A DNA stretch of 42,261 nucleotides, taken from Prevotella sp. (GTDB taxonomy: Bacteria; Bacteroidota; Bacteroidia; Bacteroidales; Bacteroidaceae). Positions 5,258 through 37,007 of the stretch are shown one piece after another. The notes under the pieces are model-generated. The model was not told where the DNA came from. It saw nothing but the letters and a program-made list of their open reading frames with translations, and ran no database searches. The DNA lies in assembly GCA_017964785.1 (NCBI GenBank), contig JAGCRH010000112.1:1-42261 (forward strand), in the 5' to 3' direction. The translations under genes were made by a program, and so were the position numbers. Each line of letters begins with the position of its first letter. Positions within the stretch are counted from its first letter, which is position 1.

Positions 5258-5289
5258 TTCAATTTTTCAACTTTTCAATTTTTCAACTT
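5258..5289. repeat. Perfect duplicated 16-mer made of octamers, between susD and the DUF1735 gene
   Basis: TTCAATTTTTCAACTT is present twice in tandem without mismatch (5258-5273, 5274-5289); each copy is two related octamers. It fills almost the whole 40-bp gap. On the coding (minus) strand it is purine-rich (TTGAAAA type) and ends a few bases before the start codon. Confidence 0.9.
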
Positions 5290-5292
5290 TTA

Positions 5293-7158
5293 TTACCAAC
5301 CCTTGTTTTGCAGGAGGCTGCTCCATTTGAGCACTTCACCCTTTGGAAGAGGTCCATACAACTGATAAGAGTTGTCGTATTTGCGATCCTCCACTTCAAT
5401 AATGGTATATTTCAGCGGACTGTCTTCCTTATCCGGGTCGACCTTCTGGATCTTCATGCCTTTGACACCCTCATCCAGAGGCATTTGCCAGCGACGGAGA
5501 TCCCAGAAGCGCTTGTTCTCAAAGCAGAGTTCAATACGACGCTCATTGCGGATAAGGTCTGTCATCTTTGCCTTGTCTGCCTTACATTCCTCAAGATAAG
5601 CATCGCCTTCAGGAAGGGCGGCACCAATCTCATCCTTTGCAATTCCAGCACGATTGCGGATGGCCTTGATGACATCGTAAGCGGTGAAACCTACACCCGT
5701 CGGGTCTGCATCAGGCCCCCATGCATCGTTGGCCGCTTCAGCGTATGCCAAGAATATCTCTGTATAGCGGATACGCGGATAGATATGATGCTGAGAAGAA
5801 TTAGAAGACGGACTCACATTGACATCTTCACGAAGAAGTTTCCTCAGATAGTAACCCGAACGTGTTGACGAGCCTCTCTGATTGTCAAGATTGTCAAGCG
5901 TCTCACCATCTTCATTGGGTATTTCAAAACCTGTTGAAATAACCGTCTTATGGAAAGTCGCACCATGATAGATGATATATTCTGAAAGACGTGGATCACG
6001 GTTGGCATACGGATTCTCCGGATCATATCCCGATTGAGAGTCTGTGATAGGACGGCCATTCACCATGGGGAATGCATCCACGAGGTTCTGGGATGGGTTG
6101 ACACGACCATTCCCGTAAAGCGTCGGGGGGAAGTTTTCCTTTTCCTGGCTATTATCCTGACTCCGATCTTCACGCCAGATCATCTCCGGAATTTCCGTTG
6201 TGGTACTATTATCGATTTTGGTCTTGTTCTTGTACCAGGTATGACCGTTATTGTCCAACCCCGACACGCCATCGATACGCTTAAGCACATTGGCACATAG
6301 TGTTGCGGCCTCGGCAGAAGTCACACCGCTCTGATCGCGGAAGGCAGGACTTGCTGCGAGGAGGGCGATCTGTGCCTTCACAGCCTCCGCAGCCTGACCA
6401 GACATCAGATTCTTGGCTTTTTTTCCGAATACGAGGTTGTAACCCGAAGCATTCGCACCAAGTGCCCGGTACTTTGCAGGGATTTCATCTTCAGAATTGA
6501 TGTCTTCATAATGATCAGGGAGGAGAGCGATGGCACTATCGCAGTCGGCAAAGCACTGCTTGACGCAGTCAGCAAATGTAGCACGTGGCTGATTGAAGTC
6601 AGAACTACCGTCCTCAGCGGCTGTGAGCAAAGGTACGCCATAGAGTTGGCCATCGTCTGCATAACCGCCATGAGCCTGTAGCAGGAAGTAATAGAAGACG
6701 GCTCGAAGGCCGAAAGCCTCACCTTTCATGCGATCGATAAACATCTGCTGCTTAGATACGGCACTTGGAGCCCACTTCACTTTTTCTACGATAGAAAGGA
6801 AGAGGTTGGCATACTGGATGCCATGCTTACAATTGTCCCATTGAGTCATCGGGTTATTGTCTGATGCCCACGTACCTGTTGCCATATTCAGGAAATTGCT
6901 GCTATAATCATTGGTAACAGCATCATCTGTGGCAACATCCGACTGAGTGGTCCTCACATAAGGAAGACGCTCGTAAGCAAAAATCAGCAGACCATGTGCA
7001 TACGCGGATTCCTCGGTCAAATCCTCCAGTTGTCGCTTGTTCTCTTCCGCCGGACTAAACATGTCATCGCATGAACAGAACAGCACTGCGCAAACTAATA
7101 ACTGACAAATGATAAATGATAAACTTATCAGAGGTCTTTTATATTGTTTTGTACTCAT
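5293..7158 (-). CDS. SusD/RagB-family outer-membrane lipoprotein (second of the PUL, XusD-like)
   Basis: 621 residues. Signal peptide with lipobox cysteine Cys30 (LFCSC). SusD hallmarks: an N-terminal helix pair with acidic LEDLTEESAYAHGLLIFAYE, the central KGEAFGLRAVFYYFLLQAHGG segment (equivalent to the usual RA-Y-L---GG motif), RIRYTEIFLAYAEAANDA, and the C-terminal IRNERRIELCFENKRFWDLR signature. SusD proteins cap the partner SusC barrel and bind the oligosaccharide at the surface; the partner here is the susC at 7194-10127, with a 35-bp gap. The signal-peptide core is coded by in-frame 7-bp repeats (7095-7122). Substrate specificity cannot be read from sequence; xylan is inferred from locus order. 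Confidence 0.93.
   Translation of the reverse strand: MSTKQYKRPLISLSFIICQLLVCAVLFCSCDDMFSPAEENKRQLEDLTEESAYAHGLLIFAYERLPYVRTTQSDVATDDAVTNDYSSNFLNMATGTWASDNNPMTQWDNCKHGIQYANLFLSIVEKVKWAPSAVSKQQMFIDRMKGEAFGLRAVFYYFLLQAHGGYADDGQLYGVPLLTAAEDGSSDFNQPRATFADCVKQCFADCDSAIALLPDHYEDINSEDEIPAKYRALGANASGYNLVFGKKAKNLMSGQAAEAVKAQIALLAASPAFRDQSGVTSAEAATLCANVLKRIDGVSGLDNNGHTWYKNKTKIDNSTTTEIPEMIWREDRSQDNSQEKENFPPTLYGNGRVNPSQNLVDAFPMVNGRPITDSQSGYDPENPYANRDPRLSEYIIYHGATFHKTVISTGFEIPNEDGETLDNLDNQRGSSTRSGYYLRKLLREDVNVSPSSNSSQHHIYPRIRYTEIFLAYAEAANDAWGPDADPTGVGFTAYDVIKAIRNRAGIAKDEIGAALPEGDAYLEECKADKAKMTDLIRNERRIELCFENKRFWDLRRWQMPLDEGVKGMKIQKVDPDKEDSPLKYTIIEVEDRKYDNSYQLYGPLPKGEVLKWSSLLQNKGW
7095..7122 (-). repeat. 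In-frame heptad repeat inside a SusD signal peptide
   Basis: On the minus strand four heptamers follow each other: TTATCAT, TTATCAT, TTGTCAG, TTATTAG. They are translated in frame as part of the hydrophobic signal-peptide core (LSFIICQLLVC). The right-hand copies are exact and the left-hand ones have drifted. Confidence 0.75.
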
Positions 7159-7169
7159 AATTTTCTATC

Positions 7170-7197
7170 TTCAATTATCAATTTTCAATTATCTTAT
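7170..7197. repeat. Heptad repeat between susC and susD
   Basis: The plus strand reads TTCAATT, ATCAATT, TTCAATT, ATCTTAT: four 7-bp units, the first and third identical. They fill most of the gap between the susC stop and the susD start at 7158. The sense strand is purine-rich. Confidence 0.8.
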
Positions 7198-10127
7198 AGA
7201 GTTACTTTCACACCGAGATTATAGAAACGCGTCTGTGGTGCGAAGCCAACGCTCGTCTCCATCAATTTACGGTTCTTGGCAATCGTAAGGAGATCATTTC
7301 CATTCAGATAAATAGAGAGTGCCTTCACCCACTTACCATCAAACATTTCCTTGGGGAAGTCGTAGGTGAGTTGTACCTTTCTGAGGTTGAAGCGGTCGGT
7401 GCTGTAGATCCAGAAGGTAGATGCCTCACCATTGGATGTGGCCACGGTTGTCAGACGGGGGTGCGTAGCGGTAGCAGCCGACGCATCACTCGTCCATCGT
7501 CCGCGTGCATTGACAGAGTACTTGTCATTTCCACTCATAAAGTAGTAAGCATTGTTCTTCAAGCCATAAGCACCGAACTGACCATTGCCCAGCATAAAGA
7601 GTGTCCAGTTCTTGTATTTGAGCGTGAGGTTGACGCCAAGGGTGAAAGGAGACCCGTATGTACCTGATTTACCAAGATCGACCTGGTCTTTGCTGTCGAT
7701 GATGTTATCACCATTGACATCTTCATACTTCAAGTCACCCGGCTGGAGATTGGCACTACCACTAAGTCTTGAAGATGGGAGACCAGCCTTCAAAGTGTAC
7801 TTGCCAGTCTCTGCATTGAAATCAAAGTCGTTAGTCGAATAGAAACCTATGCATTTATAACCTGAGATGGCATCAAGGGCATTGCCCTCATGAATAAGTT
7901 CTCCAAGTGAATTTCGCCAAGTTGCTGATGGATCGACGGTTTCATCATACTTCTTCCATTTCGTCGTAAGATAGGTACCTACAACACCGAGTTGAGCAAA
8001 GACCTGCCCAAACTGTTTCTGGGCTGTGATACTAAAGTCAAGACCCTTGCGGTTCTGTATGTTGTTGTTAAGAGCGGGCTTGAATGAACTGCCACTACCT
8101 TGCAGATGTGAGGGGAATGATGACGGGTTCTGGACAACAAAACCATCCATATCTGTATTGAAGAAGGTAAGGTCAGTGCTTATCAACTTATTGAAGAACG
8201 AGCCGCGCAGACTGACAGACCATTCCTTGCGGTGAATGTAATCGAGGGCCGGGTTGGCACCCGTGGAGGAAACGGTATGGTCGGCTGTTGTACCTTCATT
8301 CCATGAAAAACCAGAACTACTCGAATTTGACCACGTCGCATCGTAGATGAAATACTCATTACTTCCCAAATAGACATCCATATCCTCCCGCAGGTCACTG
8401 TATGAGGCACTGAGCATCAGGTCGTCTACAAAAGTATCTTTCAGTAAACTCTCCTTGGCGATGTTCCAACCAACCGTGAATGAGGGTGAGATGGCTTCAC
8501 GATGACCTTCGGCCAGACGGGCTGAATGGACACCGGCCAAGCCAACCTCGGCAAAGTAACGGCTCATATAGTCGTAACCGGCCTGAAGTCCTAAGTTCGC
8601 ATTGGCATAACGATGGTACGTTCCACTGGCTGTAGTGGTGTACATATTGGCGAGCAATATACCTGTGACATGATGTTTGTTGGCAAAGGTGTGCTCGTAG
8701 TCGAAATGACCATTCCAACTGATGGTCTGGCGATATTTCGTATTTGACATGGTCATACGACCTGTCACGATCTCATCACCCTGCTGGGTCAGGCCTACAA
8801 TGGCATCGCTTCCATTATAGTTACTCCATGTGGGAATAAACACAGCGTATGTGTTGTCGTAAGAAAGGCTGTAGTTAGCAGCATAGTCGATAGAGAACAT
8901 CGTCGTGAATGACAAGCCATTCACAAACTTGTTCATATCATACGTGAAACCCGCATCGAACTGGAACTGACGGCTGACAAGTGTTGTCTTACCACCGAAA
9001 TAACAGTCAGCAATCACATTTGACTGGGTGGTCTTTGTACCTCCAGGGAAATACCTGCCGTCAAGCAGGTTGAGCGACTTGCCAAGCATCGCAAGTGCCT
9101 TGCTGGCATTCGGGTCAACTGTATTTATATCAATCAGGGGCGCAGCATTCTCTGGGAAGTTCGGACGCATGGTGGCAGCCTGGGCCCAGAAGTCGCCCTT
9201 ATTCTTATTCTCATTGTAGAAGGTAGCAGTGGCATTGGCAAAACCCTTGATTACCTTGTTGATGACGAGGTCAACATTACCACGTACGCTGAAACGATCG
9301 GTATAGTTATCTTTTGCCGGACCGAAATTGATGAGGTCTTCTGCGCGATAGTAGTTGATGTTCGTGTAGAAGTGGGCACGCTGACCACCACCTTGAATCT
9401 CCAAGGTTCCCTCAGAGCGGTTATATATCTTTCGGATATACTCGTCAGAATAATAGTTGACGTTGGGATAACGGTAAGGGTTCACACCCGAAGCATGATT
9501 GTAGATATCGACATCGGAGTACTTTTTACCGGATGACAAGTTATCGTTAATGCATGCTTCGTTGTAAAGATTCATGTACTCGGCCGAACCAAGATACTCC
9601 GGGAATTCCTTGGCTACGTGGAAACCTGTGTTGGCATTGGCTTTGATCTGCAGGCCATCCACCTTGCCACGCTTGGTGGTAATCAGAATGGCACCCTTGG
9701 CACCCTTGGCACCATAGAGCACAACAGCCTGAGCCCCCTTCAGGAAAGTAATCTGCTCGATTTCGGAGGGAAGCACATTGTTAGACGGACGCTTCACGCC
9801 GTCAATGATGACGAGCGGCAAATTGTTGTTGTCGTTATTGTCAAGACGGTCGTTGTCCATACCCCAGAGGTTGTTGCCATTCCATCCGCCGACAAGCGCA
9901 TACATATCTTCAAGGCTGCTCTGTGTATAATCCTTCTTCGACAGTTCCTCCATATCGACGTATGAAACACCTCCTAGAAGATGGTCGGCATCCACATCAC
10001 GGAAAGCAACATGGACTTTCTGTTTTACCACCGTAGAGTCTGCGTCGTCAGCCGTCTGGGCATTGACCGTCAGCGGCGATACAGCCAACATGGCAAAGAG
10101 AAATATGTTTATCCTTTTACTTTTCAT
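7194..10127 (-). CDS. SusC/RagA-family TonB-dependent transporter lacking the N-terminal carboxypeptidase-like domain (XusC-like)
   Basis: 977 residues. Signal peptide 1-23 (VNAQ). It lacks the 80-residue carboxypeptidase-regulatory-like domain usual in SusC proteins. After about 20 residues comes KQKVHVAFRDV, where a TonB box is expected, then a plug domain (about 45-155) with LLGGVSYVDM, LPLVIIDGVKRP and the SusC signature GAKGAKGAILITTKRG. The rest is a 22-strand-type barrel ending RFYNLGVKVTL, with a terminal aromatic-rich strand. It would import glycan fragments across the outer membrane with its SusD partner at 5293-7158. Order matches xusC of xylan PULs. Heptad repeats lie in both flanking gaps. 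Confidence 0.92.
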   Translation of the reverse strand: MKSKRINIFLFAMLAVSPLTVNAQTADDADSTVVKQKVHVAFRDVDADHLLGGVSYVDMEELSKKDYTQSSLEDMYALVGGWNGNNLWGMDNDRLDNNDNNNLPLVIIDGVKRPSNNVLPSEIEQITFLKGAQAVVLYGAKGAKGAILITTKRGKVDGLQIKANANTGFHVAKEFPEYLGSAEYMNLYNEACINDNLSSGKKYSDVDIYNHASGVNPYRYPNVNYYSDEYIRKIYNRSEGTLEIQGGGQRAHFYTNINYYRAEDLINFGPAKDNYTDRFSVRGNVDLVINKVIKGFANATATFYNENKNKGDFWAQAATMRPNFPENAAPLIDINTVDPNASKALAMLGKSLNLLDGRYFPGGTKTTQSNVIADCYFGGKTTLVSRQFQFDAGFTYDMNKFVNGLSFTTMFSIDYAANYSLSYDNTYAVFIPTWSNYNGSDAIVGLTQQGDEIVTGRMTMSNTKYRQTISWNGHFDYEHTFANKHHVTGILLANMYTTTASGTYHRYANANLGLQAGYDYMSRYFAEVGLAGVHSARLAEGHREAISPSFTVGWNIAKESLLKDTFVDDLMLSASYSDLREDMDVYLGSNEYFIYDATWSNSSSSGFSWNEGTTADHTVSSTGANPALDYIHRKEWSVSLRGSFFNKLISTDLTFFNTDMDGFVVQNPSSFPSHLQGSGSSFKPALNNNIQNRKGLDFSITAQKQFGQVFAQLGVVGTYLTTKWKKYDETVDPSATWRNSLGELIHEGNALDAISGYKCIGFYSTNDFDFNAETGKYTLKAGLPSSRLSGSANLQPGDLKYEDVNGDNIIDSKDQVDLGKSGTYGSPFTLGVNLTLKYKNWTLFMLGNGQFGAYGLKNNAYYFMSGNDKYSVNARGRWTSDASAATATHPRLTTVATSNGEASTFWIYSTDRFNLRKVQLTYDFPKEMFDGKWVKALSIYLNGNDLLTIAKNRKLMETSVGFAPQTRFYNLGVKVTL

Positions 10128-10138
10128 ATCTTCATTAT

Positions 10139-10166
10139 TTCACTATTCACTATTCACTATTCACTT
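10139..10166. repeat. TTCACTA heptad repeat, four copies, between susD and susC
   Basis: TTCACTA occurs three times in exact tandem (10139-10145, 10146-10152, 10153-10159), followed by TTCACTT (10160-10166). It lies between the upstream susD stop and the susC start at 10127, so the transcript reads repeated (A/T)AGTGAA. The same heptamer reappears inside porV at 36926-36960. Confidence 0.92.
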
Positions 10167-10171
10167 CTATC

Positions 10172-12190
10172 TTACCATCCAGGGTTCTGGGGGAATCCTT
10201 CATAAAGATAAGTATCCTTGTCAGGAAGCGGGAACCAGTAGTGCTTCGATTCCAGACGACGGGTTATCAACTCTTCCTTGCGGAAATTGCCCACCTGTGC
10301 ATCCTTTGGATTATGGGTCTTAAACCACGTATCTTTTTCCAGACGCTCGAACTCATGAGAATATTTCATGGTGTAAGGAGGCTCGGTCAGGAGGAGCCAG
10401 CGCTGAAGGTCATTCCAGCGGAAGCCTTCAAAGGCAAGTTCTACGGCACGCTCACGACGCACCTCATCAATGAAATGTTCCCTGGTGTCCATGAGATTAG
10501 CTTGTACATGTTCCATCGGGTAGTCGTCTGAATTGACACGGTCACGGAGTTTATCGATGGCATCAACAGCAGAAAGTGAAGGACAGTATTCCGGCTTTTC
10601 CTTCAGGCCTGCTACACTTGTTGCGATAGCAGCCCGTGCCTCAGCATACATCAGATAGACATCGGCCAGACGCATATAAGGGAGATATGCTTCAAAAGCA
10701 TAATCCCATTCATACCATTTGTCGCCTTCATTACACTGATGAGGTGTCAACTTCTGGATGAAATAGCCCGAACTACTGCCGTCGGCAACGCCACGCATGG
10801 CACCGCCCGTGTAAAGGGTACAGTATTCATGCTTTTTCTGTTCTGATGTTAAGGCATCCGTGCTGAGCACATAGTGGAAGCCATCAAACACGATATCGTG
10901 ATAGAATCGCGGGTCACGGTCTTTATAAGGATGCTCGGGATCCCAGCCCGACTCAGGATTCAGTACATATACACCATTCCTAACAAGGTAGATGGGCTGT
11001 CCGTTAGCCATACCGTACTGGTCAATGAGGTTGGCAGTAGGATGATGGATGATTTTATCATGCGCCACGAGACCAGCCACCTTAGGACCGAAGATCTTTG
11101 CGTGGTTCCAGTTGGCTGTATTCAGACCAGAACAAATACCGCGGAAGATGGCTTCTGTAGAACCTGGCACCCTCCAACTCTGCTTGACGGTATAGAAAAT
11201 GTCTGAGTAGCAAGTCTCAGCATCCTCATCTTTCTCATGGTCATAGATATTGGTGTATCTGAAATCAGCCAATTTGTAACTGACAGTTCTTCTATTTACC
11301 ATAGTGAGTGCCTTGCCAAGTGCCTCAGCGGCCTTCTGGCAGTAGGCAACATCATAGTCGTAGGTCTTGCCATTAGAACTGGCACCTAACAGTTGGGCGA
11401 CACCACCGTTCTTGGTTTTCTCAAACTCCTTCATGAGCGGAGAACCTGCCCAGAGATAGCACTTGCCGAGATAGCAGAGCGCCATGAACTTGTTGATACG
11501 CAGGTCATTCTTTCCGGCCGTCTGCATACCTGCCAATGTTTCGTCCCAAGCCTGAGGATCGGCAGGAAGAAGATCGTATGCCCGTTGGAAGTCTTCAGCA
11601 CAGCGGTCAGCACATTCCTGGAAAGAAAGACGGGGAAGTTCAGGAATGGCCGCAGCCTCGTATGCTTCATCAATATAGGGAAGACCACCGAAGAAGCACA
11701 TCAGTTCGAAATGCCACCATGCACGGAAGAAATACATCTGTCCGAGCAAGAGGTCGCGCTCCTCGTCTGTACCCACCATAGACTTGATGTTCGCAATACC
11801 CATATTACACTTACGGATACAATACCATGAACTTTTCCAGAGCGAAAATCTGTCACCATTCAGCCAGAACTGGGAGTTGGTTAACCAATCCCGATAGTTG
11901 CCAAGATCTGCCTGATGATCGATGTGCGCATAGCCTTCTGTATTGTGAAGAGCATCGTCACCTAAGTTCCATCCGCTACAATAGTTCACCTTCTCCTTGT
12001 CGGGAACCAAACTATAGATTTCCTCAATATACCCCTGGAAGTTACGATAGTTCTTAAACGCCTCATCTTCTGCCACAATAGACTCAGGATCCTTATCGAG
12101 CCAGTCTTTGCAAGAAGTGAGGGAAGCACTGACAGCCATCAGGAGCAGCGTACCGCACAAGAGGGATTTTATGTTATTATAATATTTCAT
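10172..12190 (-). CDS. SusD/RagB-family outer-membrane lipoprotein (first of the PUL, XusB-like)
   Basis: 672 residues from the ATG at 12190. An in-frame start 8 codons upstream (12214) would add MGLIGLSD, which is coded by a short 9-bp repeat and spoils the signal peptide, so 12190 is preferred. Lipoprotein signal with Cys27 (SLTSC). SusD features: KDWLDKDPESIVAEDEAFKN, the LLLGQMYFFRAWWHFELMCF segment, PYMRLADVYLMYAEARAA and VRRERAVELAFEGFRWNDLQ. It is the surface glycan-binding lid of the susC at 12224-15448, from which it is separated by 33 bp. A xylan-type substrate is inferred from the locus. Confidence 0.93.
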   Translation of the reverse strand: MKYYNNIKSLLCGTLLLMAVSASLTSCKDWLDKDPESIVAEDEAFKNYRNFQGYIEEIYSLVPDKEKVNYCSGWNLGDDALHNTEGYAHIDHQADLGNYRDWLTNSQFWLNGDRFSLWKSSWYCIRKCNMGIANIKSMVGTDEERDLLLGQMYFFRAWWHFELMCFFGGLPYIDEAYEAAAIPELPRLSFQECADRCAEDFQRAYDLLPADPQAWDETLAGMQTAGKNDLRINKFMALCYLGKCYLWAGSPLMKEFEKTKNGGVAQLLGASSNGKTYDYDVAYCQKAAEALGKALTMVNRRTVSYKLADFRYTNIYDHEKDEDAETCYSDIFYTVKQSWRVPGSTEAIFRGICSGLNTANWNHAKIFGPKVAGLVAHDKIIHHPTANLIDQYGMANGQPIYLVRNGVYVLNPESGWDPEHPYKDRDPRFYHDIVFDGFHYVLSTDALTSEQKKHEYCTLYTGGAMRGVADGSSSGYFIQKLTPHQCNEGDKWYEWDYAFEAYLPYMRLADVYLMYAEARAAIATSVAGLKEKPEYCPSLSAVDAIDKLRDRVNSDDYPMEHVQANLMDTREHFIDEVRRERAVELAFEGFRWNDLQRWLLLTEPPYTMKYSHEFERLEKDTWFKTHNPKDAQVGNFRKEELITRRLESKHYWFPLPDKDTYLYEGFPQNPGW

Positions 12191-12193
12191 ATC

Positions 12194-12217
12194 ACTTAAA
12201 CCTATTAAACCCATTCT
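12194..12217. repeat. 9-bp imperfect repeat before the first susD
   Basis: The coding (minus) strand reads GGTTTAATA and GGTTTAAGT back to back, preceded by a decayed copy (GGTAGAATG), just upstream of the ATG at 12190. The repeat covers the alternative upstream start, which supports the shorter reading frame. Confidence 0.6.
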
Positions 12218-12223
12218 ACCTAT

Positions 12224-15200
12224 TTAAATATATAACTTAAATCCGAGGTTATAACGTCTGACTGTGGGGTAAGCACCGCCACCGCCACTCCAACCATAGT
12301 TACTCTCACGGTCATCAGGCATCTTTGTGATGAGGAAGAGGTTATTGCCGTTCAGATAAATCTTCAGGCTTGTGAAACCAAGTTTCTTGATCCAGCCCTT
12401 CGTCCAAGTGTAAGCCACTTCCACATTCTTCAGTCGGAAATAGGAGCCATCGAAGAAATACTGTGTACCGTTGTTGCCACCGGTAGCCTGAGTGTTGAAA
12501 CGCGGCATGACTACTTCTCCGCCTTTTGCTGCAGAACTCCACCAAGTACCCGTATCATATACAGTAAGCAACTGATCCGGGAAAGATGTAAGGGTGACAT
12601 CACGTGTGACACCTGTGACACCATATAACTGGGCGAAGCAGGAGAAACCTTTCCACTCCCAACCGATTGTGGCATTATAGGTGTGCTCTGGGGTTCCCGT
12701 GTAGCCGTATGGAGCCTGATCATTAGTCTGATCAACAACGCCATCACCATTGAAGTCAACGATATAATGGTCACCGATGAGAACCTGCGCATCATTACTC
12801 TGATGTTCCGGTGTACTATAGAGTTCGTCGTAGGTATTGATAAAACCGTTATCGATGTATGACACATACTGTCCCTGTGAATAGCCTTGCGCCTTACGGT
12901 AAGCAGGTATCAGTTCGGGGTCATCCTTCAGTTTAATCTCATTGTGCGCATAGGTGTAGTTGGCATTGACCCAGAAACGCATGCTATTATTCAACACCTT
13001 ATTGAAGCGTACTTCTAATTCGAAACCGGAGTTCTTGATCTTACCCTTGTTGACGTCAGGGGTCTTGGCTGCACCATAATAGGAAGGCACAGAACGGTCA
13101 GTTCCGTAGATAAAGATGTCGTAACGATCGTCACGGAACCAGTCGAAACTACCGGCAAACATACCACCTAAGAAAGCATAGTCAAAACCGATATTCATCT
13201 TCTTGACCGTAGCCCAGCGGAGGTCAGGGTTGGCAATAGTGGCTTCCTTGTAGCCAGTGAACGGGCTGTCGGTACGATCCAGTCCCATCTGGAATTTACT
13301 CATTGCTTCCCAACCTGTCAGGTAGGCCCAACGGTCGCCCGCACTGTCATCACCGATCTCACCATAGGAACCACGGATCTTGAACATATCGATAATCTTC
13401 TTATCTCTCAGCACTTTCATGAATTTCTCGTCGGAGACCATCCAGCCAAGCGCTCCCGAAGCGAAGAATGCGAAACGGTTGTCCGGGGAGAACTTCTGCG
13501 AGCCGTTATAGGCGCCATTGACTTCGGCGAAATACCTGCTCTTATAGTCGTATGTGGTACGGAACACCCAGTCTTCACGACGATTCTCGAGTTCTGAATT
13601 ATAGGCATTATTACGCCGCTTCCAGTTACCCATCAGAGTCACGTTATGGTCGCCGAACTGCCGTCCCCAGAAGAGTTGGAGCGACATTTCCGTAGCACGA
13701 CTTGTACGACTGACGCTACCTGCCTGAGTAGACCAATCTCGCTTTTCATAATAATCGAAACCTGTGTTACTGAATATCTCATTCTCAAAAAGTAACTCAC
13801 CATCCTCAGGGAGTATGTATGCCGTATTGTTCACATGACCACCTCCGGCGGCATTAATACCTCGATCAGCCTCATTAAACTGATTGTCCCAAGAAATCGT
13901 ACCGCGTGCCACAAGTCCTTTTGTGATAAAATCGAGGTTCTGCTCAAGCGCAAAGTCTGTGAATACACGCGTAATGGTACCCAATTCATAACCGGCCGTT
14001 GCAACGTTCATAGGAGAGTTTGCCATGTTAGAGGCAGCCAGTCTGGAATAACCCCAAGCACCATTCGAGAACTTGACCGGGTACACGTTTGGCGGCATAC
14101 GATAAGCACCTGCCCAGTTCTGCTGCTGGAAGAACTCACCGCTATTACCATAATAATAACGTGGATTCTTCTGCTGTGCATTGGAACCTGCCAGATTCAC
14201 CTTGAACTGGGTGGTCTTGGTGATCTGGAAGTCAAGATTTGAACGAACATTCAGACGATTGTATGAATAACCACCTTCATAACCCTGATTGTTTTCCCAA
14301 ATCTTTGTCATATCACCTTCATTCTGGAAGTCGAAGGCCACGAAATATTTAACAGCCTTTGTACCGCCAGAGAAATTGATGTTTGTATTATACGACAAGG
14401 CCGTTTTCCTGAACATCTCCTCCTGCCAGTCAATATTTGGATAGCGCTCAGCCTGACTATAGTCGCCAAGATAAGCACCCTGAGCATTATAGTGAGGCTT
14501 GACAGTATAATCCTGATTGCGGAAATTGTTGATGAACGTCTGTGGACGATAGTACGCCCAAGAGGCGTCACCACTGAGGGCAAGTTCATGCTCAATGACC
14601 TGATTGCGGAGCATATAGCCGTCGTAAGAATCGTATTTACGCGGGAGTTTTGACACAGCCTTTAATGTTGCATTGAAACCGATATCGATTCTGGCCTTGC
14701 CTTCCACACCACGCTTGGTGGTGATCAGAATAACGCCGTTAGCGCCTTCCACGCCATAAACGGCTGTGGCAGAGGCATCTTTCAACACAGAGACTGTTGC
14801 TACGGATGTAACATCCACAGACTTGATCTCACGCTTGACACCATCGACGAGGATCAGAGGCTGAGCATCCTGGTTCCAGGCGGCTGCACCACGGATATAA
14901 ATACGTGGGTCTTCTTCACCCGGCTGACCGGTAGAAGCAATGGTTGCAACACCTGGAAGGTTACCAGTAAGAGCCGCACTGACACTACCGATACCTGCTG
15001 CACGCTCAAGGACTTCACCCGTTGTCTGGGTGATGGCACCCACCACTGAGGCTTTCTTCTGCTGGCCGAAACCGACGACCACCACTTCTTCCAATTCAGT
15101 ATTGTCGGTCAGGGTCACTTTAAAGTCGCGCTGCTTACCAACTTTCATTTCCTTGGTATTCATTCCTACATAGGAAACAACGATTGTCGTCGATTCAGAA

Positions 15201-15448: not shown

Positions 15449-15536
15449 CTTGCCTGATTTAGATTCATACGCTTTAATCATTAAAATTGATTAGGCTATT
15501 TGTAAAATATACATTAAATAATATCAAAAATCGGTG

Positions 15537-15568
15537 CAAAGGTAAGGGTTTTTTGCATAATTAACAAA
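15537..15568 (-). promoter_or_regulatory. Predicted promoter of the PUL operon
   Basis: On the minus strand a TTTG (15568-15565) is followed 20 bp later by TACCTTTG (15544-15537). This fits the Bacteroidota vegetative consensus TTTG / TAnnTTTG. Transcription would begin near 15530 and give a leader of about 80 nt to the susC start at 15448. Confidence 0.72.
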
Positions 15569-15575
15569 AAAACGA

Positions 15576-15602
15576 GTAACATTTTCTTTATTTTAGGTAA
15601 CA
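15576..15602. promoter_or_regulatory. Candidate HTCS operator: GTAACA direct repeats
   Basis: GTAACA occurs at 15576-15581 and 15597-15602, 21 bp apart start to start (two helical turns), just upstream of the susC -33 element. A weaker copy (TTAACA, 15561-15566) overlaps that element. The right-hand repeat ends 5 bp before the -33 box of the divergent regulator. AraC-type domains bind direct repeats in such places; binding here is inferred. Confidence 0.4.
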
Positions 15603-15607
15603 AATTG

Positions 15608-29142: not shown

Positions 29143-29167
29143 TCACCAAACAAAAACAATAATTACA

Positions 29168-31075: not shown

Positions 31076-32470
31076 TCACACGGATGTTACAAGGGAAGAG
31101 AAACCGTCCTCCACAGGCAACTCAAAATGCATCCACTTGCTTGTGAAGGGATGGGTAAAGGCGATGGCCTGTGCCTGAAGATAGAGACGGTCTGATTTGT
31201 GACCGTACAGTTCATCGCCTACGATAGGACAACCAAGACCATCGGGATGGGCACAATGCATCCGCAACTGGTGCGTCCGTCCAGTATGCGGCCAGAGGGC
31301 GAGAAGAGTGAAAAGCGAAGAGTGAAAAGTAATCGATTTGCTACCGCTATCAAAAGTGCGAAGCACCCGGTACTCCGTGATGGCGCGCTTGCCGTGTTCA
31401 TAGTCTACCACCTGACGGGGGCGGTTGATGGGGTCGCAGAGTAGCGGCAGATCAATGATGCCATGCTCCCTTGCAGGCACGCCCTCCACCACAGCCAAGT
31501 ACTTCTTCTTGATGATACGCTCCTCGAACTGTCGTTGCAGATGATGGTAGACTCCCGTGTTTTTCGCCACGAGGAGGAGTCCCGATGTCCACATATCGAG
31601 CCGATGCACCAGCATAGCACCTAGCCAACGCTGCTGCGCCCACGTGGCGACGGAATGATCCTCGGTACGCCCTGGCACACTCAGCATACCGGCAGGTTTG
31701 TTGACCACCGCCAGTATCTCGTCCTCATAGACAATCTCCGGATGAAGATGTGGGAAGCCACCCTCCTCAGGGTTAGGATCGATATCGAGTCCCTGTAACA
31801 TCCAAGTGAGGATAGGCTTGCACTTGCCACGACAGGCAGGATAGAACTGTCCGTGCTGGCGGATCTCACTCTTCGGCGAGGATCCCCACCAGAACTCCGC
31901 CATACACAGGGGTTTTAAATGGTGCTGATAGGCATACTGCAATAGTTTCGGCGCACAGCAGTCGCCCGTACCGCCCGGGGGCAGCGGATACTTGTTACGG
32001 ATACGGGGCGAACAATGATAGTCCTGCCAGATATCAACGAGATCCTTCACCTCGCCATAGGCATTCAGCATCCGATACTGGCGGAAGAGCCAGAGTTGCA
32101 GGTCCTGCGACATTTTTTTAGAGGTGAGTGGTGCATGGTGAGAGGCAAGAGATATCTCACGCTCTTTCTGTTTAAAGTAGCCATCGGGCTGCTGTGCATC
32201 AAAGACGGGCGGCACGAAGTAGTCCCAGTCGTTACGGCCTTCCAACAAGCCAGAATAAGCAGCCAGAAATTCTTTGGAAGTGCCGAATTTGCTATTCGGC
32301 GCTTCCACTACCATGACCCCGAACATCTTCCCCTCTGTGGGCTGGATGCGCTCTATCTCGCGCTTCACCTCCTCCGCTGCAAGGATGCACAACGGATGGG
32401 GCTCATAGCAGAAAGGATAGGTGAACCGCTCCGGTCCAGGAATATCGGAAGACAGGAGGTGCAACCTCAT
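31076..32470 (-). CDS. Large RluA-family RNA pseudouridine synthase
   Basis: 464 residues from the ATG at 32470; a GTG 7 codons upstream would overlap the kinase gene. The catalytic domain is C-terminal (about 225-464): EDEILAVVNKPAGMLSVPG, catalytic Asp292 in VHRLDMWTSGLLLVAK, and PHTGRTHQLRMHCAHP. The first 200 residues form an extension with YPACRGKCKPIL and EFWWGSSPKSE, as in the longer RluA homologues of about 500 residues. It isomerises uridine in RNA; the target site is unknown. Two stretches look inserted and are coded by heptad repeats: LASHHAPLTSKK (32116-32150) and ITFHSSLFTL (31299-31326), the second between YRVLRTFDSG and the TGRTHQ strand. It abuts the glucuronidase stop with no gap. 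Confidence 0.88.
   Translation of the reverse strand: MRLHLLSSDIPGPERFTYPFCYEPHPLCILAAEEVKREIERIQPTEGKMFGVMVVEAPNSKFGTSKEFLAAYSGLLEGRNDWDYFVPPVFDAQQPDGYFKQKEREISLASHHAPLTSKKMSQDLQLWLFRQYRMLNAYGEVKDLVDIWQDYHCSPRIRNKYPLPPGGTGDCCAPKLLQYAYQHHLKPLCMAEFWWGSSPKSEIRQHGQFYPACRGKCKPILTWMLQGLDIDPNPEEGGFPHLHPEIVYEDEILAVVNKPAGMLSVPGRTEDHSVATWAQQRWLGAMLVHRLDMWTSGLLLVAKNTGVYHHLQRQFEERIIKKKYLAVVEGVPAREHGIIDLPLLCDPINRPRQVVDYEHGKRAITEYRVLRTFDSGSKSITFHSSLFTLLALWPHTGRTHQLRMHCAHPDGLGCPIVGDELYGHKSDRLYLQAQAIAFTHPFTSKWMHFELPVEDGFSSLVTSV
31299..31326 (-). repeat. Heptad repeat inside the pseudouridine synthase core
   Basis: The minus strand reads TTCACTC, TTCGCTT, TTCACTC, TTCTCGC. These are four 7-bp units of the same type as the intergenic TTCACTA array, and they are translated in frame (HSSLFTLL). 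Confidence 0.75.
32116..32150 (-). repeat. Heptad repeat inside the pseudouridine synthase N-terminal region
   Basis: The minus strand reads TCTTGCC, TCTCACC, ATGCACC, ACTCACC, TCTAAAA. The TCACCTCTAAAA end is the same as in the array at 32479-32506, which lies in the opposite orientation 330 bp away. Confidence 0.72.
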
Positions 32471-32478
32471 AAGTAACT

Positions 32479-32506
32479 TCTCACCTTTCACCTCTCACCT
32501 CTAAAA
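32479..32506 (+). repeat. Heptad repeat at the junction of the kinase and pseudouridine synthase genes
   Basis: The plus strand reads TCTCACC, TTTCACC, TCTCACC, TCTAAAA. It codes for the last residues and stop of the kinase (EVRGER) on the minus strand and ends 8 bp before the start of the pseudouridine synthase. In the transcript it appears as repeated AGGTGA, which may also serve as a ribosome-binding region. Confidence 0.82.
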
Positions 32507-33311
32507 TATCAAGGCACTTCTCCACGGGGATACCCTTGTTTCTGTCTGGCGTATCACGGTAACGGTCAATCATGCGGAACACGGTATCCATCGCCGTACG
32601 GGTGGACATGCGTAGGTTCTCTCCATTCAACAGATGACCGATAAGGACGGCAGAAAAAATGTCACCCGTGCCATGAAACAGACCGGGAATCTCGTGATAC
32701 TCCAAATGGAAATAGGTATCGTCGTAGTGGTTGTAGCCCACCACGGCGTTCTGGCCTTCGATTTTACAACTGGTAATCAGCACCGACTTACAGCCAATGT
32801 CGCGTAGTCGGTCTAACAATCGCTCAGCCTCCATCCACGAGATACCCTCCATCTTGATGGGTGTATCGGTGAGATAGCAGGCCTCCGTATAGTTAGGAAA
32901 GGTGAGATGAGCCACACTGACCATCTCACGCATCAGTTCCACCTGACGATTGGTCATACCGTTATAGAGCCGTCCGCCGTCACCGAGGATAGGGTCCACG
33001 AAGACCGTCGTCCCCTGCTCGCCCTGTTCCTTGCAATAGCCCGCCACCAACCTGGCCTGTTCTTCGCTAAACATCAAACCGGTGCAGATGGCATCGAAGC
33101 CGAAGCCGAGTTCCTTCCATACCGGCAACGTACCACGTATATAGTCGGTAGTGTCCTGGATATTAAACTTCCCGTAATCGAGTGTGTTCGACACGAGGGC
33201 TGTGGGCAAACTGTACGTGGGTATACCTAAATACGACAGGATCGGGAGCATGGCACCCATGCCCACCTTGCCGTAGCCCACCACATCATTGATCAGCAAT
33301 ATTTGTTTCAT
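32481..33311 (-). CDS. PfkB-family kinase, probable pyridoxamine/pyridoxal kinase
   Basis: 276 residues, cytosolic, ribokinase fold. It begins MKQILLINDVVGYGKVGMGA, the typical start of pyridoxal kinases, where the first strand and GxG turn meet the substrate. The anion-hole motif GTGD (214-217, catalytic Asp217) lies in GLFHGTGDIFSAVLIGHLL. VDPILGDGGRLYNGM and LTFPNYTEACYLT are the usual PdxK/PdxY segments (D-P-V-(M/L)-GD and TPN-EA). It would phosphorylate B6 vitamers to the 5'-phosphate with ATP. A -7 promoter box lies 9 bp upstream of the ATG. The pseudouridine synthase follows after 10 bp, probably in one transcript. Confidence 0.87.
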   Translation of the reverse strand: MKQILLINDVVGYGKVGMGAMLPILSYLGIPTYSLPTALVSNTLDYGKFNIQDTTDYIRGTLPVWKELGFGFDAICTGLMFSEEQARLVAGYCKEQGEQGTTVFVDPILGDGGRLYNGMTNRQVELMREMVSVAHLTFPNYTEACYLTDTPIKMEGISWMEAERLLDRLRDIGCKSVLITSCKIEGQNAVVGYNHYDDTYFHLEYHEIPGLFHGTGDIFSAVLIGHLLNGENLRMSTRTAMDTVFRMIDRYRDTPDRNKGIPVEKCLDILEVRGER

Positions 33312-33319
33312 CTCGGCTG

Positions 33320-33327
33320 CAAAGGTA
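33320..33327 (-). promoter_or_regulatory. -7 promoter element of the kinase gene
   Basis: The minus strand reads TACCTTTG, a full TAnnTTTG match, ending only 8 bp before the ATG at 33311. The transcript should be leaderless or nearly so. No clear TTTG -33 box is seen. Confidence 0.62.
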
Positions 33328-33334
33328 ATAAGAA

Positions 33335-33362
33335 ATTAAGAATAAAGAATTAAGAATTAAGA
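33335..33362. repeat. ATTAAGA heptad repeat in the divergent kinase/helicase intergenic region
   Basis: Four 7-bp units: ATTAAGA, ATAAAGA, ATTAAGA, ATTAAGA. They lie between the two divergent -7 boxes, where the -33 regions of both promoters would be. Confidence 0.85.
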
Positions 33363-33372
33363 AAAAAATGTG

Positions 33373-33380
33373 TACCTTTG
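33373..33380 (+). promoter_or_regulatory. -7 promoter element of the helicase gene
   Basis: TACCTTTG matches TAnnTTTG and ends 10 bp before the ATG at 33391, so the leader would be only a few nucleotides. An in-frame GTG at 33370 lies upstream of the box and cannot be the start of this transcript. Confidence 0.62.
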
Positions 33381-33390
33381 CAGCAAAATT

Positions 33391-35328
33391 ATGGGAAATC
33401 AGCAGAATTCACCGATATTGGCACTCCAACAACAACGACTACTGCTCCAGATGGAGTACGTTGCCGAGAAAGATGCCTACCGCCAGCAGACCGAGGAGAT
33501 GGGCTTGCAACGGCAGGTGAAACGCGGCGATGCCTGGTGGCCCGTGAAGATGGGCAAAAGTTACTACAACTCGCTGAACCAACTCGTGGTGGAGGTGCAT
33601 CGTCAGGGCGACGAGGAGATAGAGCATAACTTCGAATTCGGGCGACCGGTGGTTTTTTTTAGGAGCCAAGGCGGCCCTATGGAGGGCTTAGGCAATCCTA
33701 GGGGTAACTCAGAAAATCCTAGGATATCCTATTTCCCCTTTACGGGGACGGTCAGTTTCGTCGATGGCGACAGGATGGTGGTGGCAGTGCCGGATAATGG
33801 CCATCTCATCGATGTGCAAGGCGCAGAGAACGTCGGCATCCAACTCTTCTTCGACGAGACCAGTTATAAGATGATGTTCGAGGCCCTCGACAGGGTAATT
33901 AGGGGAAAAGGGCGACTGGGCTACCTGCGCGATCTCTTCTACACGCCGGCGATGAAGGCAGAAACTTTTTCATTTGCCGCCCTCCATTTCCCTTATCTGA
34001 ACCCGACGCAGGAGGATGCCGTCAATAAAGTATTACGGGCGAAGGATGTCGCTATCGTCCACGGTCCCCCAGGCACCGGCAAGACCACGACACTTGTAGA
34101 GGCCATCTACGAGACACTGCGACGGGAGAGTCAGGTGCTGGTCTGTGCACAGAGCAATCTGGCGGTGGATTGGATTTCTGAAAAACTTGTGGATCGTGGT
34201 GTCAACGTGCTCCGTATCGGCAATCCAACCCGCGTCAACGACAAGATGCTCTCCTTCACCTACGAGCGCCGTTTCGAGGCTCACCCTGATTACGACCAAT
34301 TGTGGGCCATCCGCAAAGCCATCCGTGATCTACGCAATCACAGGAAACGGGGTGATGAGAAATACCACCAGAAGATAGAACGCCTGAAGGAACGGGCCAC
34401 CGAACTAGAGTTGCGCATCAATGCCCAACTTTTCGGTGAAGCCCGCGTCATTGCCTGTACACTCGTGGGATCAGCCAACCGTCTGTTGGAAGGTCAGAAG
34501 TTCGGTACCTTATTTATTGATGAAGCCGCCCAGGCTCTTGAAGCAGCCTGTTGGATTCCCATACGAAAAGTGTCAAGAGTGGTATTGGCGGGGGATCACT
34601 GCCAACTGCCACCCACCATCAAGAGTTTTGCCGCCTTAAAAGCAGGTCTCGGCAAGACACTGATGGAGCGTCTCGTGGAAAATCATCCGGAAGCAGTCAC
34701 CCTGTTGAAAGTACAGTACCGTATGAACGAGGAGATCATGCGCTTCTCGTCAGACTGGTTCTACGATAATCAGGTGGAGAGTGCGCCAGAGGTAAAGTAC
34801 CGGAGCATCCTCGACCTCGATATCCCCATGACGTGGATAGACACCAGTCTATTTGATTTGCCAGAAGGGGAAAAGGTGTTGTTTCAAGAGGAGTTCGTCG
34901 GTGAGAGTTTCGGACGCATCAACAAGGCCGAGGCAGAACTGACTTTGTTGGCGTTGGAGAACTATTTCAAGAAGATCGGCAAGGAGCGTATCCTCGACGA
35001 ACGGCTTGATGTCGGAGTCATCTCACCCTATCGTGCTCAGGTGCAGTATCTTCGTCGGCTATTCAAGAAACGAGCGTTCTTCAAGCCCTATCGCAACCTC
35101 ATCAGCGTGAATACCGTCGATGGCTTCCAGGGGCAGGAGCGTGACATCATACTCATCTCTCTCGTCCGCGCCAATGACAAGGGACAGATTGGCTTCCTTC
35201 GTGATCTGCGCCGTATGAATGTTGCCATCACCCGCGCCCGGATGAAGGTCATCATCCTCGGTGATGCCTCCACCCTCACCCGCCATCCCTTCTACAAGAA
35301 ACTCTATGATTATATCGAAGCGTTATAG
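33391..35328 (+). CDS. Superfamily 1B (UPF1/IGHMBP2-like) DNA/RNA helicase
   Basis: 645 residues from the ATG at 33391 (MGNQQNSPIL). Helicase motifs in order: Q-like FPYLNPTQEDAVNKVL, Walker A GPPGTGKTTT (from Gly225), Ia VCAQSNLAVDWISEKL, Walker B LFIDEAAQ (Asp377, Glu378), III VVLAGDHCQLPPTI, IV LLKVQYRMNEEIM, V NTVDGFQGQERDIILISLVR and VI NVAITRARMKVIILGD. DEAA plus the VNTVDGFQGQE motif place it with the UPF1-like group; bacterial members are poorly studied. An N-terminal beta-barrel-like region (about 30-160) and a charged stretch (RNHRKRGDEKYHQKIERLKE, between motifs Ia and II) are typical of the group. It is convergent with ispF, 6 bp apart. The cellular role is unknown. Confidence 0.92.
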   Translation: MGNQQNSPILALQQQRLLLQMEYVAEKDAYRQQTEEMGLQRQVKRGDAWWPVKMGKSYYNSLNQLVVEVHRQGDEEIEHNFEFGRPVVFFRSQGGPMEGLGNPRGNSENPRISYFPFTGTVSFVDGDRMVVAVPDNGHLIDVQGAENVGIQLFFDETSYKMMFEALDRVIRGKGRLGYLRDLFYTPAMKAETFSFAALHFPYLNPTQEDAVNKVLRAKDVAIVHGPPGTGKTTTLVEAIYETLRRESQVLVCAQSNLAVDWISEKLVDRGVNVLRIGNPTRVNDKMLSFTYERRFEAHPDYDQLWAIRKAIRDLRNHRKRGDEKYHQKIERLKERATELELRINAQLFGEARVIACTLVGSANRLLEGQKFGTLFIDEAAQALEAACWIPIRKVSRVVLAGDHCQLPPTIKSFAALKAGLGKTLMERLVENHPEAVTLLKVQYRMNEEIMRFSSDWFYDNQVESAPEVKYRSILDLDIPMTWIDTSLFDLPEGEKVLFQEEFVGESFGRINKAEAELTLLALENYFKKIGKERILDERLDVGVISPYRAQVQYLRRLFKKRAFFKPYRNLISVNTVDGFQGQERDIILISLVRANDKGQIGFLRDLRRMNVAITRARMKVIILGDASTLTRHPFYKKLYDYIEAL

Positions 35329-35334
35329 GAAAAC

Positions 35335-35814
35335 TTAATCTTTCTGGATTAGAACCACGGCGTAGGCGGAGATGCCTTCTTCACGACCCGTGAAGCCCAG
35401 TTTCTCAGTTGTCGTGGCCTTGATGGAAATGTCGTCGGCATCGCAGCCAATGACTTGCGCCATACATTCTTTCATGGCAGGGATGTGGGGATTCATCTTG
35501 GGCCGCTCGGCGCAGATGGTGGCATCGATGTTCACGAGGCGGTAACCCTTGGTGGCGATGAGGTCGATGGTCTTTTTCAGGATGATCTTGCTGTCCATGC
35601 CATCGGTCTCTGCCGCTGTGTCGGGGAAGTGATAGCCGATATCACGCATATTGGCGGCGCCCAACAGGGCATCACAGACAGCATGTAGCAACACGTCGGC
35701 GTCGCTATGACCCAGCAGCCCCTTCGCATGTTCCAACTTGATGCCGCCCATCCATAGGTCGCGGCCTTCTACTAACTGATGGACATCATAGCCCATGCCT
35801 ACACGTATCTTCAT
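35335..35814 (-). CDS. ispF: 2-C-methyl-D-erythritol 2,4-cyclodiphosphate synthase
   Basis: 159 residues, the normal length. Fifth step of the MEP isoprenoid pathway: converts CDP-methylerythritol 2-phosphate to the cyclodiphosphate and CMP. The zinc ligands Asp10 and His12 (GYDVHQL) and His44 (HSDADVLLHA) are present, as are FPDTAAETDGMDS, ERPKMNPHIPAM and the C-terminal ATTTEKLGFTGREEGISA signature. The protein forms a trimer with active sites between subunits. The start overlaps the porV stop by 4 bp, so it is translated with porV. The porU-porV-ispF order links secretion genes to isoprenoid synthesis only by position. Confidence 0.97.
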   Translation of the reverse strand: MKIRVGMGYDVHQLVEGRDLWMGGIKLEHAKGLLGHSDADVLLHAVCDALLGAANMRDIGYHFPDTAAETDGMDSKIILKKTIDLIATKGYRLVNIDATICAERPKMNPHIPAMKECMAQVIGCDADDISIKATTTEKLGFTGREEGISAYAVVLIQKD

Positions 35815-37007
35815 TTCCTGAATAAATCTTTGATGCCATCCATATCGAAGGCAAGAGTGAAACGCAGAGTCTGGTCAAGGGGGTTCGAGCGGGCGGTAGA
35901 GATGACATAGCCCACATCGAGTGAGAAGACATTCATGCGAAAACCGCCACCCACGGTGAAATATTTCAGGTTACCCTTCGACTCGGCCTGATGGTGATAG
36001 CCTGCACGGATGGAGAACTGGTCATGGTAGACATACTCGGCACCGACGCTCCACTGGATCTCATCGAGTTCCTCCTTGAAGCCACCGGGGGCATCGCCAA
36101 AACTTTTGAAGATGCCGCTGATGGCACTCACATCACTGTACTCACGGCGCACGCGATCCTGATAGTCTGTGTTCGACTCTCCCTCCTCCTGGGCCGGCAC
36201 GGTAGGCACCAACAATTTGTTGGCATCGGCGGTGATGGTGAAGCGGTTCCACTCGTCAACGGGTATGAGCAATGAAGCACCGAGACGCATGTTGGCGGGG
36301 ATGAACTGGCTCTCCTCGTCGCCGTAGAAGGATATCTTTGAACCAATGTTCGAGAGGTTCAGGCCGAGGGCCAACTGACACTCGCGGCTACCCAGGTTGA
36401 CATACCTATTGTAATACATCGCCAGGTCGGCGGCGAAGGCTGAGGCGGGCTTGGAGTCCTCAGAGTAGTCGTAGCGCAGGTCGCTGTAAATCCAGCGCAG
36501 GGCGGCGGCCATCGAGAAATGCTCGGAGAGCATCAGTGAGTAGGCCACGTCGAGCGACATCTCGTAGGGCTTCACCGTCATATCGGTCTGGCCGTAATCA
36601 GTAAAGACCTCGCCGAGCGAGAAATAGCGCAGCGAGCCGGAGATGGCGGAGTAGTCACCGATGCGGTAGTAACCTGCCACGTAGGCCAGGTCAATATCGT
36701 TCACCAACTGGCGCAGCCACGGGGTGTAGTTCAATGCGATGCCGGCGCGGGAAATACAAAACGGATACTTGGCGGGGTTCCAGTACTGCGAGTTGACATC
36801 AGGCTCGGTGGCGGCACCCACGTCACCCATACCGGCGGCACGGGCGTCTGGGGCGATGGTCTGCGAGATGACGGCATGCTCCACGGGGTTGAACATCGTC
36901 ACCTTGTCATCGTCCTGAGCAGAAGAAGTGAATAGTGAACCGTGAATAGTGAATAGTGTCACCATCACTCTCAACAGGGTTATCTTCGTTGCTTTCTTCA
37001 TATTCAT
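35811..37007 (-). CDS. porV: Type IX secretion system outer-membrane barrel PorV (LptO)
   Basis: 398 residues. FadL-like outer-membrane beta-barrel that carries cargo from the translocon to the PorU attachment complex. Family landmarks: ISQTIAPDARAAGMGDVGAA after the signal peptide, SQYWNPAKYPF, alternating hydrophobic strands, and a C-terminus ending RFTLAFDMDGIKDLFRK. The gene lies 8 bp after porU, as in Porphyromonas gingivalis. Two starts, 6 bp apart (37007 and 37001), are equally good. The signal-peptide hydrophobic part (VTLFTIHGSLFTSSAQ) is coded by TTCACTA-type heptad repeats at 36926-36960. Confidence 0.93.
   Translation of the reverse strand: MNMKKATKITLLRVMVTLFTIHGSLFTSSAQDDDKVTMFNPVEHAVISQTIAPDARAAGMGDVGAATEPDVNSQYWNPAKYPFCISRAGIALNYTPWLRQLVNDIDLAYVAGYYRIGDYSAISGSLRYFSLGEVFTDYGQTDMTVKPYEMSLDVAYSLMLSEHFSMAAALRWIYSDLRYDYSEDSKPASAFAADLAMYYNRYVNLGSRECQLALGLNLSNIGSKISFYGDEESQFIPANMRLGASLLIPVDEWNRFTITADANKLLVPTVPAQEEGESNTDYQDRVRREYSDVSAISGIFKSFGDAPGGFKEELDEIQWSVGAEYVYHDQFSIRAGYHHQAESKGNLKYFTVGGGFRMNVFSLDVGYVISTARSNPLDQTLRFTLAFDMDGIKDLFRK
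36926..36960 (-). repeat. TTCACTA heptad repeat coding for the PorV signal peptide
   Basis: Read on the plus strand the units are AAGTGAA, TAGTGAA, CCGTGAA, TAGTGAA and a partial TAGTG. On the coding strand this is ACACTA, TTCACTA, TTCACGG, TTCACTA, TTCACTT. Each unit is 7 bp, so five units make most of the coding for TLFTIHGSLFTSS. The same heptamer forms the intergenic array at 10139-10166. Confidence 0.88.

Follow-up and report, generated by a model that had tools for sequence, protein, structure and literature searches.

Tandem arrays with a period of 7 bp occur well beyond chance in a Prevotella genome and across its genus, and they look like fast-changing filler that is tolerated in forgiving places, not like a switch of translation. 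These heptamer arrays came to attention in a stretch of 42,261 nucleotides of a Prevotella sp. (GenBank contig JAGCRH010000112.1; our contig C63), here called the window, which belongs to a genome of 2.88 Mb in 147 contigs that is 81% complete. In our judgment the data are probably covered best by a combination of recurrent duplication at period 7, turnover of the repeated unit and a filter of tolerance. Heptamer repeats of bacteria are already known; their niches in promoter spacers and signal peptides look new. The named relatives of the helicase gene of the window are all Prevotella or Prevotellaceae genomes, the nearest including the metagenome-assembled genome RUG12981 and the yak-reticulum isolate RGIG10002 (about 89-90% protein identity), which suggests that the window comes from a rumen-type Prevotella. 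Gene models are simple longest open reading frame (ORF) calls throughout.

Excess of period 7 and anatomy of the arrays

Within the window two period-7 arrays pass the stricter score, whereas 20 local dinucleotide shuffles give a mean of 0.0. In 306 kb of this genome taken from outside the window, no other period between 2 and 30 is as common as 7 at either score: 17 arrays pass at score 11 and 11 pass at score 14, while one shuffle gave 0; periods 8, 9, 11, 14, 15, 18, 21 and 22 likewise exceed the shuffle, at lower counts. Sixty stretches of congeners (1.08 Mb) contained 71 arrays of period 7, 26 of period 8, 34 of period 14, 26 of period 21 and 28 of period 22, where shuffles gave 0 or 1 (0 for period 7). 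The preliminary description of the window had proposed a heptamer family extending beyond it, and such a family does exist genome-wide and genus-wide. Four TTCA motifs at 7-bp spacing were found by pattern search in 98 of 120 genomes of the genus (the window genome among them), and at 8-bp spacing in 58; the heptamer pattern was also present in 5 of 16 genomes of the order outside the genus. In the window genome itself, with overlapping matches included, spacing 7 gives 57 matches, spacing 8 gives 32 and the reversed heptamer pattern gives 27. Control patterns that keep the fixed bases but space them differently or reverse them yield different counts. The spread among congeners is patchy: genome G008 has 183 pattern matches and several genomes have none, while genome G001 is rich in octamers (301 octamer vs 40 heptamer pattern matches), mainly TTCAATTC/TTCAATTT arrays.

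The anatomy of the arrays was analyzed on 169 heptamer arrays from 117 stretches, which fall into 80 unit classes. Four units are the mode, with 35, 67, 43 and 7 arrays of 3, 4, 5 and 6 units and 17 longer ones, and the median length is 30 bp for heptamer and 29 bp for octamer arrays; it should be noted that the low end of this distribution is partly censored because the detection score drops the shortest arrays. TTCA is contained in 67 of the 169 units, the commonest being TTCACTA, TTCACTT, TTCACTC and TTCAATT. Units are shared within genomes: they are identical in 6.2% of array pairs from different stretches of one genome, in 1.3% of pairs between genomes and in 0.1% of random flank 7-mers, and near-identical within-genome pairs number 308 against 151.6 in 500 label permutations (highest 207). 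Long shared blocks do not exceed those of unit-permuted arrays (3, 7 and 22 pairs vs means of 3.7, 10.9 and 25.4), and copying of whole blocks was rejected on this basis despite single long matches of 53 bp in G008, 31 bp in G106 and 27 bp in G000.

Location beside genes and promoters

Heptamer arrays occupy 1.23% of intergenic but only 0.12% of coding bases. By number, coding arrays are also common, with 56 of 118 in a survey that over-represents the PorV and helicase loci because it included stretches chosen for carrying them. When 93 intergenic heptamer arrays were compared with random placement (60 sets for gene-end distances, 300 for promoter boxes), 51 lay within 60 bp of a gene start as against 25.0 at random (highest set 37), and 24 within 15 bp as against 9.9 (highest 19). 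The enrichment at gene starts claimed in the preliminary description therefore stands, although gene 3' ends are enriched more strongly, 38 of the 93 arrays lying within 15 bp of one (random 9.2, highest 15). In the window genome alone, with its 10 intergenic arrays, neither starts nor 3' ends go beyond the random range.

A second concentration is found directly upstream of the -7 promoter box TAnnTTTGC of Bacteroidota, where 16 of the 93 arrays lie 0-14 bp from the box as against 3.6 at random (highest of 300 sets 10); by base count the expectation is 5.9 (p = 2.6e-4). Three of the 16 (in the window, L029 and L041) represent one orthologous site, and the remaining 13 still exceed the highest random value, which was derived from the full set. 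Around 337 intergenic TANNTTTGC boxes, a smaller sample, arrays cover 3.5-4.9% of the bases between -40 and -11 and almost none between 0 and +59; arrays between box and start number 3 vs 7.6 expected, which is not significant (p = 0.088), and period-8 arrays upstream of the box (4 of 35 vs 1.26) stay inside the random range. With periods 7 and 8 pooled, arrays upstream of the box are in pyrimidine sense 14 to 3 (p = 0.013). Among 237 promoters with a -7 box, 18 hold a heptamer or octamer array upstream; in the other 219, TTG stands at -23 in 35% of cases and at -22 in 13% of them, a signal which at array-bearing promoters is mostly replaced by the array. This replacement agrees with reports that in Flavobacterium the -33 element is hard to see and AT-rich motifs are found instead (PMC6847099, PMC7366714).

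Tuning of leader length or translation, which had been suggested as the role of the arrays, fails as a general account, given the crowding at gene 3' ends and upstream of the -7 box; arrays upstream of the box are untranscribed from that promoter and therefore cannot tune its leader. The arrays at 5258, 7171 and 10139 of the window do lie 5, 12 and 11 bp upstream of a start, the latter two being purine-rich on the transcript, but the purine bias of leaders as a whole is weak (34:18, p = 0.036). The strand counts leave out the class of other intergenic arrays, since these were scored on the better of two strands. The array at 33329-33363 is outside any leader and is placed between two divergent promoter boxes.

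Arrays within genes

Coding arrays gather at the 5' ends of genes: of 83 in genes whose start the stretch includes, 27 begin no more than 80 nt from that start, where 8.9% would be expected using 110 nt (p = 1.6e-9). In the survey mentioned above, 19 heptamer-type arrays fell into the first 110 nt of genes, and 14 of them were placed, by eye, in signal peptides. An array was present in 6 of 46 N-terminal regions of PorV, with an additional case (L036) from the array survey. Loops of the helicase and of PorU carry arrays at 3 of 10 and 4 of 19 loci respectively (score 8 or more), with differing units. The same variable loops thus hold different heptamers by species, or none, so that in-frame arrays need no selective maintenance, contrary to the earlier argument that they must be under selection.

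The reading strand of the 84 coding arrays follows the stop codons. Where a unit carries a stop on one strand only, the stop-free strand is read 56 to 8, and units that are stop-free on both strands are read 9 times in purine and 9 times in pyrimidine sense; since 7 and 3 have no common factor, a stop within the unit turns up in all frames of the array. Stop codons thus suffice to explain what had been described as a special strand-specific use, and selection on the reading sense itself was set aside. Nor are all coding arrays opposite in sense to those before start codons, because the array at 32479-32502 codes in purine sense at the 3' end of the kinase gene and ends in its stop. In eight coding arrays the consensus sense unit carries a stop, and in two there is a stop on both strands; given the longest-ORF calls, part of these cases may be genes wrongly called or the ends of genes. 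The stop-codon argument has likewise been made for the TAACTGA repeats (MacGregor, 2015; PMC4679880).

Turnover between species and inverted pairs

The stretch upstream of the helicase was flagged as carrying a heptamer or octamer array in 8 of 73 related loci. In near relatives the divergent promoter of the kinase and helicase genes keeps both -7 boxes while the spacer sequence varies, being filled with heptamers of AATTAAG (L126), ATTATGC/ATTATGA (L128), TAATTCA (L130), AATTATG (L161) or AAATTAG (L202), with octamers (L145, L179), or with no array (L125, L129). L129 keeps a single AATTAAG, with the same flank AAAAATGTGTA as in the window, where the window has about four, which could represent a seed in situ. 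In L139, L141 and L157 another repeat of about 10 bp, of the TTCGTGTAAT or AATCCGTG type, fills the promoter-upstream stretch of the helicase.

Copy number and unit can also change at one site. L162 and L163 differ by 35 bp, i.e., five units, between flanks of about 94% identity, and in L164 GTGAGAR units replace the GCAAGAR units of L162/L163 in both arms of an inverted pair. The arms of this pair (L162:475-576, L163:474-599, L164:485-578, L165:524-617) changed unit together in L164, as if one templated the other. There are 48 pairs of neighbouring arrays no more than 200 bp apart; the arrangement is inverted-complementary in 20 of them and direct in 5, as against 10% and 15% of distant pairs. 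The purine arm comes first in 19 of the 20 inverted-complementary pairs, four of which represent one orthologous locus, and in 9 the two arms flank a mechanical ORF start, in some cases an unlikely TTG.

Origin of the arrays

Going from pattern to mechanism, we infer that recurrent tandem duplication in this Prevotella lineage favours a period of 7 bp, with 8 bp second, and would produce arrays of about 30 bp, probably by replication slippage and template switching, partly between strands; inverted partner arrays may be explained in this way because template switching between strands would leave them. Units would change fast and grow alike within one genome, and arrays would survive wherever nearly any sequence of fitting composition serves, the candidate tolerant sites being the junctions of operons, the DNA upstream of the -7 box (with its weak -33 element), the ends of genes and, in proteins, linkers and the hydrophobic cores of signal peptides. 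Orientation would be fixed afterwards, by stop codons in coding sequence, by T-rich promoter spacers and, weakly, by purine-rich leaders, and most arrays would have no dedicated function. The period excess, the length mode, the sharing of units, the statistics of location and orientation and the turnover of presence and absence across species are shown by the data, and the model is addressed to them. The copy change by whole units, the possible seed in L129 and the lack of any sign of block copying also speak for it. Several points weigh against it. Sharing of units between distant loci is unpredicted by local slippage alone, and a purely local process must account for it; the octamer-dominated genome G001 shows that 7 is not obligatory; the enrichment upstream of the -7 box could reflect promoter function; and in most orthologues that lack the array not one copy of its unit is seen, although it is present in 25 of 375 as against 11.0 expected in comparisons that are not independent.

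An alternative is that the arrays are regulatory elements whose copy number or sequence upstream of a -7 box or start tunes transcription or translation, either as phase-variable sequences or as S1/Csp-like recognition sites. The enrichment upstream of TAnnTTTGC and within 60 bp of starts and the pyrimidine sense upstream of the box speak for it, as do the heptamers between two promoters that alter expression of Haemophilus hmw1A (PMC8262952) and the TAACTGA heptamers adjoining start codons in Beggiatoaceae (PMC4679880). Yet the arrays are of few copies and often imperfect, their units differ across orthologous promoters and several orthologues have no array, enrichment at 3' ends exceeds that at starts, the strand bias in leaders is weak, and three of the 16 promoter arrays are one site. 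A purely regulatory view must also explain arrays at 3' ends, in loops and in signal peptides as well as the replacement of units at orthologous promoters, and we consider it unlikely.

The sharing of units within genomes, the commonest length, which is near 30 bp at period 7 as well as at period 8, the patchy spread among congeners and the excess of inverted-complementary neighbours would also fit a dispersed element, in which a dedicated or templated mechanism, be it a mobile element or a polymerase, writes arrays of about 30 bp into many loci. Against this, long shared blocks are not in excess, and among frequent flank words (ends at single loci not having been searched) only those of the -7 box form a consistent flank. 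Matches to the reverse transcriptase family RVT_1 do not track the arrays: none was found in G007, G008, G018, G022, G047 and G049, and six were found in G010, which has no array pattern match. Templating by reverse transcriptase was dropped for this lack of association, as judged from the tables without a statistic, and a dispersed element appears to us rather unlikely. In our opinion improbable as well is a lineage-specific activity that keeps writing such arrays, often with inverted partners, which the cell would use as interchangeable promoter spacers, as operon junctions with stops in all frames and as raw material for signal-peptide cores and loops. For the family as a whole, chance or AT-rich composition has next to no standing, being refuted by the near absence of arrays from local dinucleotide shuffles and by the differing counts of control patterns; it finds some room in the weakness of three arrays listed for the window (204, 31299 and 32116).

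Relation to known repeats

Among bacterial long simple sequence repeats (SSRs), heptamers were reported to be the most abundant, mostly intergenic and of few copies, with slippage proposed as their origin and the 7 nt suggested to mirror the contact of the polymerase (Mrazek, 2007, as cited in PMC4679880 and PMC4692102). As far as these citing papers describe the heptameric SSR class, the Prevotella arrays resemble it in exceeding composition at period 7 and in their higher intergenic density, and differ in having many unit families per genome and niches in promoter spacers and signal peptides. The TAACTGA repeats of Beggiatoaceae, Cyanobacteria and five Bacteroidetes (PMC4679880) are similar in being short heptamer arrays near start codons with a patchy spread, and in having stops in the sense unit and an open antisense unit within genes. 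Unlike these, the Prevotella arrays comprise 80 unit classes with TAACTGA in 0 of 169, show only the weak purine-sense bias in leaders, and often lie upstream of promoter boxes or beside gene 3' ends. With the GGGAATC and GGGGAYT repeats of Xanthomonas and Nostoc (Rehm, 2015; PMC4692102) they share the heptamer, the four-unit mode, the intergenic position, the variation of length and sequence between relatives and, for Xanthomonas, inverted pairs nearby; the Prevotella units are instead A/T- and pyrimidine-rich and of many kinds, and none of the 169 arrays has a G-tract, quadruplex-type unit of the GGGAATC class. The hmw1A/hmw2A heptamers of Haemophilus influenzae (PMC8262952) also adjoin promoters; they consist of pure arrays with 14-24 copies, belong to adhesin genes and have demonstrated phase variation, whereas those of Prevotella have about four copies and lie at ordinary genes. 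BrickBuilt, a minisatellite miniature inverted-repeat transposable element of Porphyromonas gingivalis (PMC4596501), likewise combines tandem repeats with bidirectional promoters in a Bacteroidota genome, but has a 23-bp unit within an element with inverted ends, of which there is no sign among the frequent flank words in Prevotella. A 2025 survey reports a high density of short tandem repeats in Bacteroidota (PMC12699852). Searches of the open subset of PubMed Central, which leaves subscription papers outside, listed no paper describing such arrays for Prevotella, for signal peptides or for the DNA upstream of the Bacteroidota -7 box.

Heptamer repeats of bacteria have been widely noted and their cause is not agreed. 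With its hundreds of arrays in many unit families, its patchy species and its array-poor relatives, the genus makes the choice of period, the homogenisation of units and the tolerance of sites testable by comparison. It is also a natural experiment on Bacteroidota promoters, in which repeats can take the place of the -33 region and leave the -7 box intact. Signal peptides and loops, too, are seen rebuilt out of repeats of a non-coding type.

Arrays and genes of the window

Pfam matches of the window proteins comprise two SusC/SusD-like pairs, a GH10-domain protein, a hybrid two-component regulator, a pseudouridine synthase, a phosphomethylpyrimidine-kinase-family protein, an SF1-type helicase, IspF (YgbB), PorV and a C25 peptidase (PorU-like). 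Of eight 7-bp arrays in the preliminary description, six were re-found at period 7 by Tandem Repeats Finder at score 30 (7098-7123, 7171-7193, 10139-10165, 32479-32502, 33329-33363 and 36927-36958), and those at 31299-31326 and 32116-32150 are weak. Its related arrays of period 8 and 9 exist at 5258-5291 (8/16 bp) and 12196-12224, while the one at 204 amounts to just 2.0 copies of 10 bp (204-223), adjoins the stop of gene 223-2373 and may be due to chance. All array features and genes that follow are on the reverse strand unless stated otherwise.

The octamer array at 5258-5291 (TTCAACTT / TTCAATTT) lies upstream of gene 4125-5252. The perfect TTCACTA array at 10139-10165 (3.9 copies; AGTGAAT, purine-rich, on the transcript) precedes the SusC-like gene 7194-10127, and the TCAATTA array at 7171-7193 (3.3 copies), also purine-rich on the transcript, precedes the SusD-like gene 5293-7158, whose 5' end contains an ATAAATG array (7098-7123, 3.7 copies) in a probable signal peptide. 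The latter two form an inverted pair (7107-7190) flanking the ATG; its predicted fold is weak (-8.0 kcal/mol), and a hairpin switch was therefore not put forward. The 9-bp array at 12196-12224 (3.2 copies, 80%) overlaps the mechanical start of the SusD-like gene 10172-12214, and a later in-frame ATG at 12190 would place it in the leader.

Within the pseudouridine synthase gene 31076-32491, the array listed at 31299-31326 corresponds to a 14-bp repeat of 1.9 copies (31303-31329), and a degenerate heptamer array which Tandem Repeats Finder did not report at score 30 lies in a variable linker (32116-32150), a site at which L030, L037, L140 and L149 have clear heptamer arrays. This linker holds different repeats in many species while the flanking domains remain alignable. 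The TCTCACC array at 32479-32502 (3.4 copies) supplies the C-terminal codons of the kinase gene 32481-33311 together with its stop. The TAAGAAT array at 33329-33363 (4.9 copies, no strand assigned) fills the spacer separating the -7 boxes TACCTTTGC of the kinase gene (33319-33327; start at 33311) and, on the forward strand, of the SF1 helicase gene (33373-33381). The helicase ORF start at 33370 overlaps its own promoter box, so that an ATG near 33391 is the likely start. The AGTGAAT array at 36927-36958 (4.6 copies) is read as TTCACTA in the signal-peptide core of the PorV gene 35811-37007.

Finally, a GC-rich palindromic repeat of the CCCCTCCC...GGGAGGGG type, which is similar to repetitive extragenic palindromic (REP) sequences, occurs in other Prevotella (L040, L065/L079, L077, L084, L162-L165) and sits, as the heptamer arrays do, in permissive sites such as gene gaps, a PorV signal peptide and protein loops.

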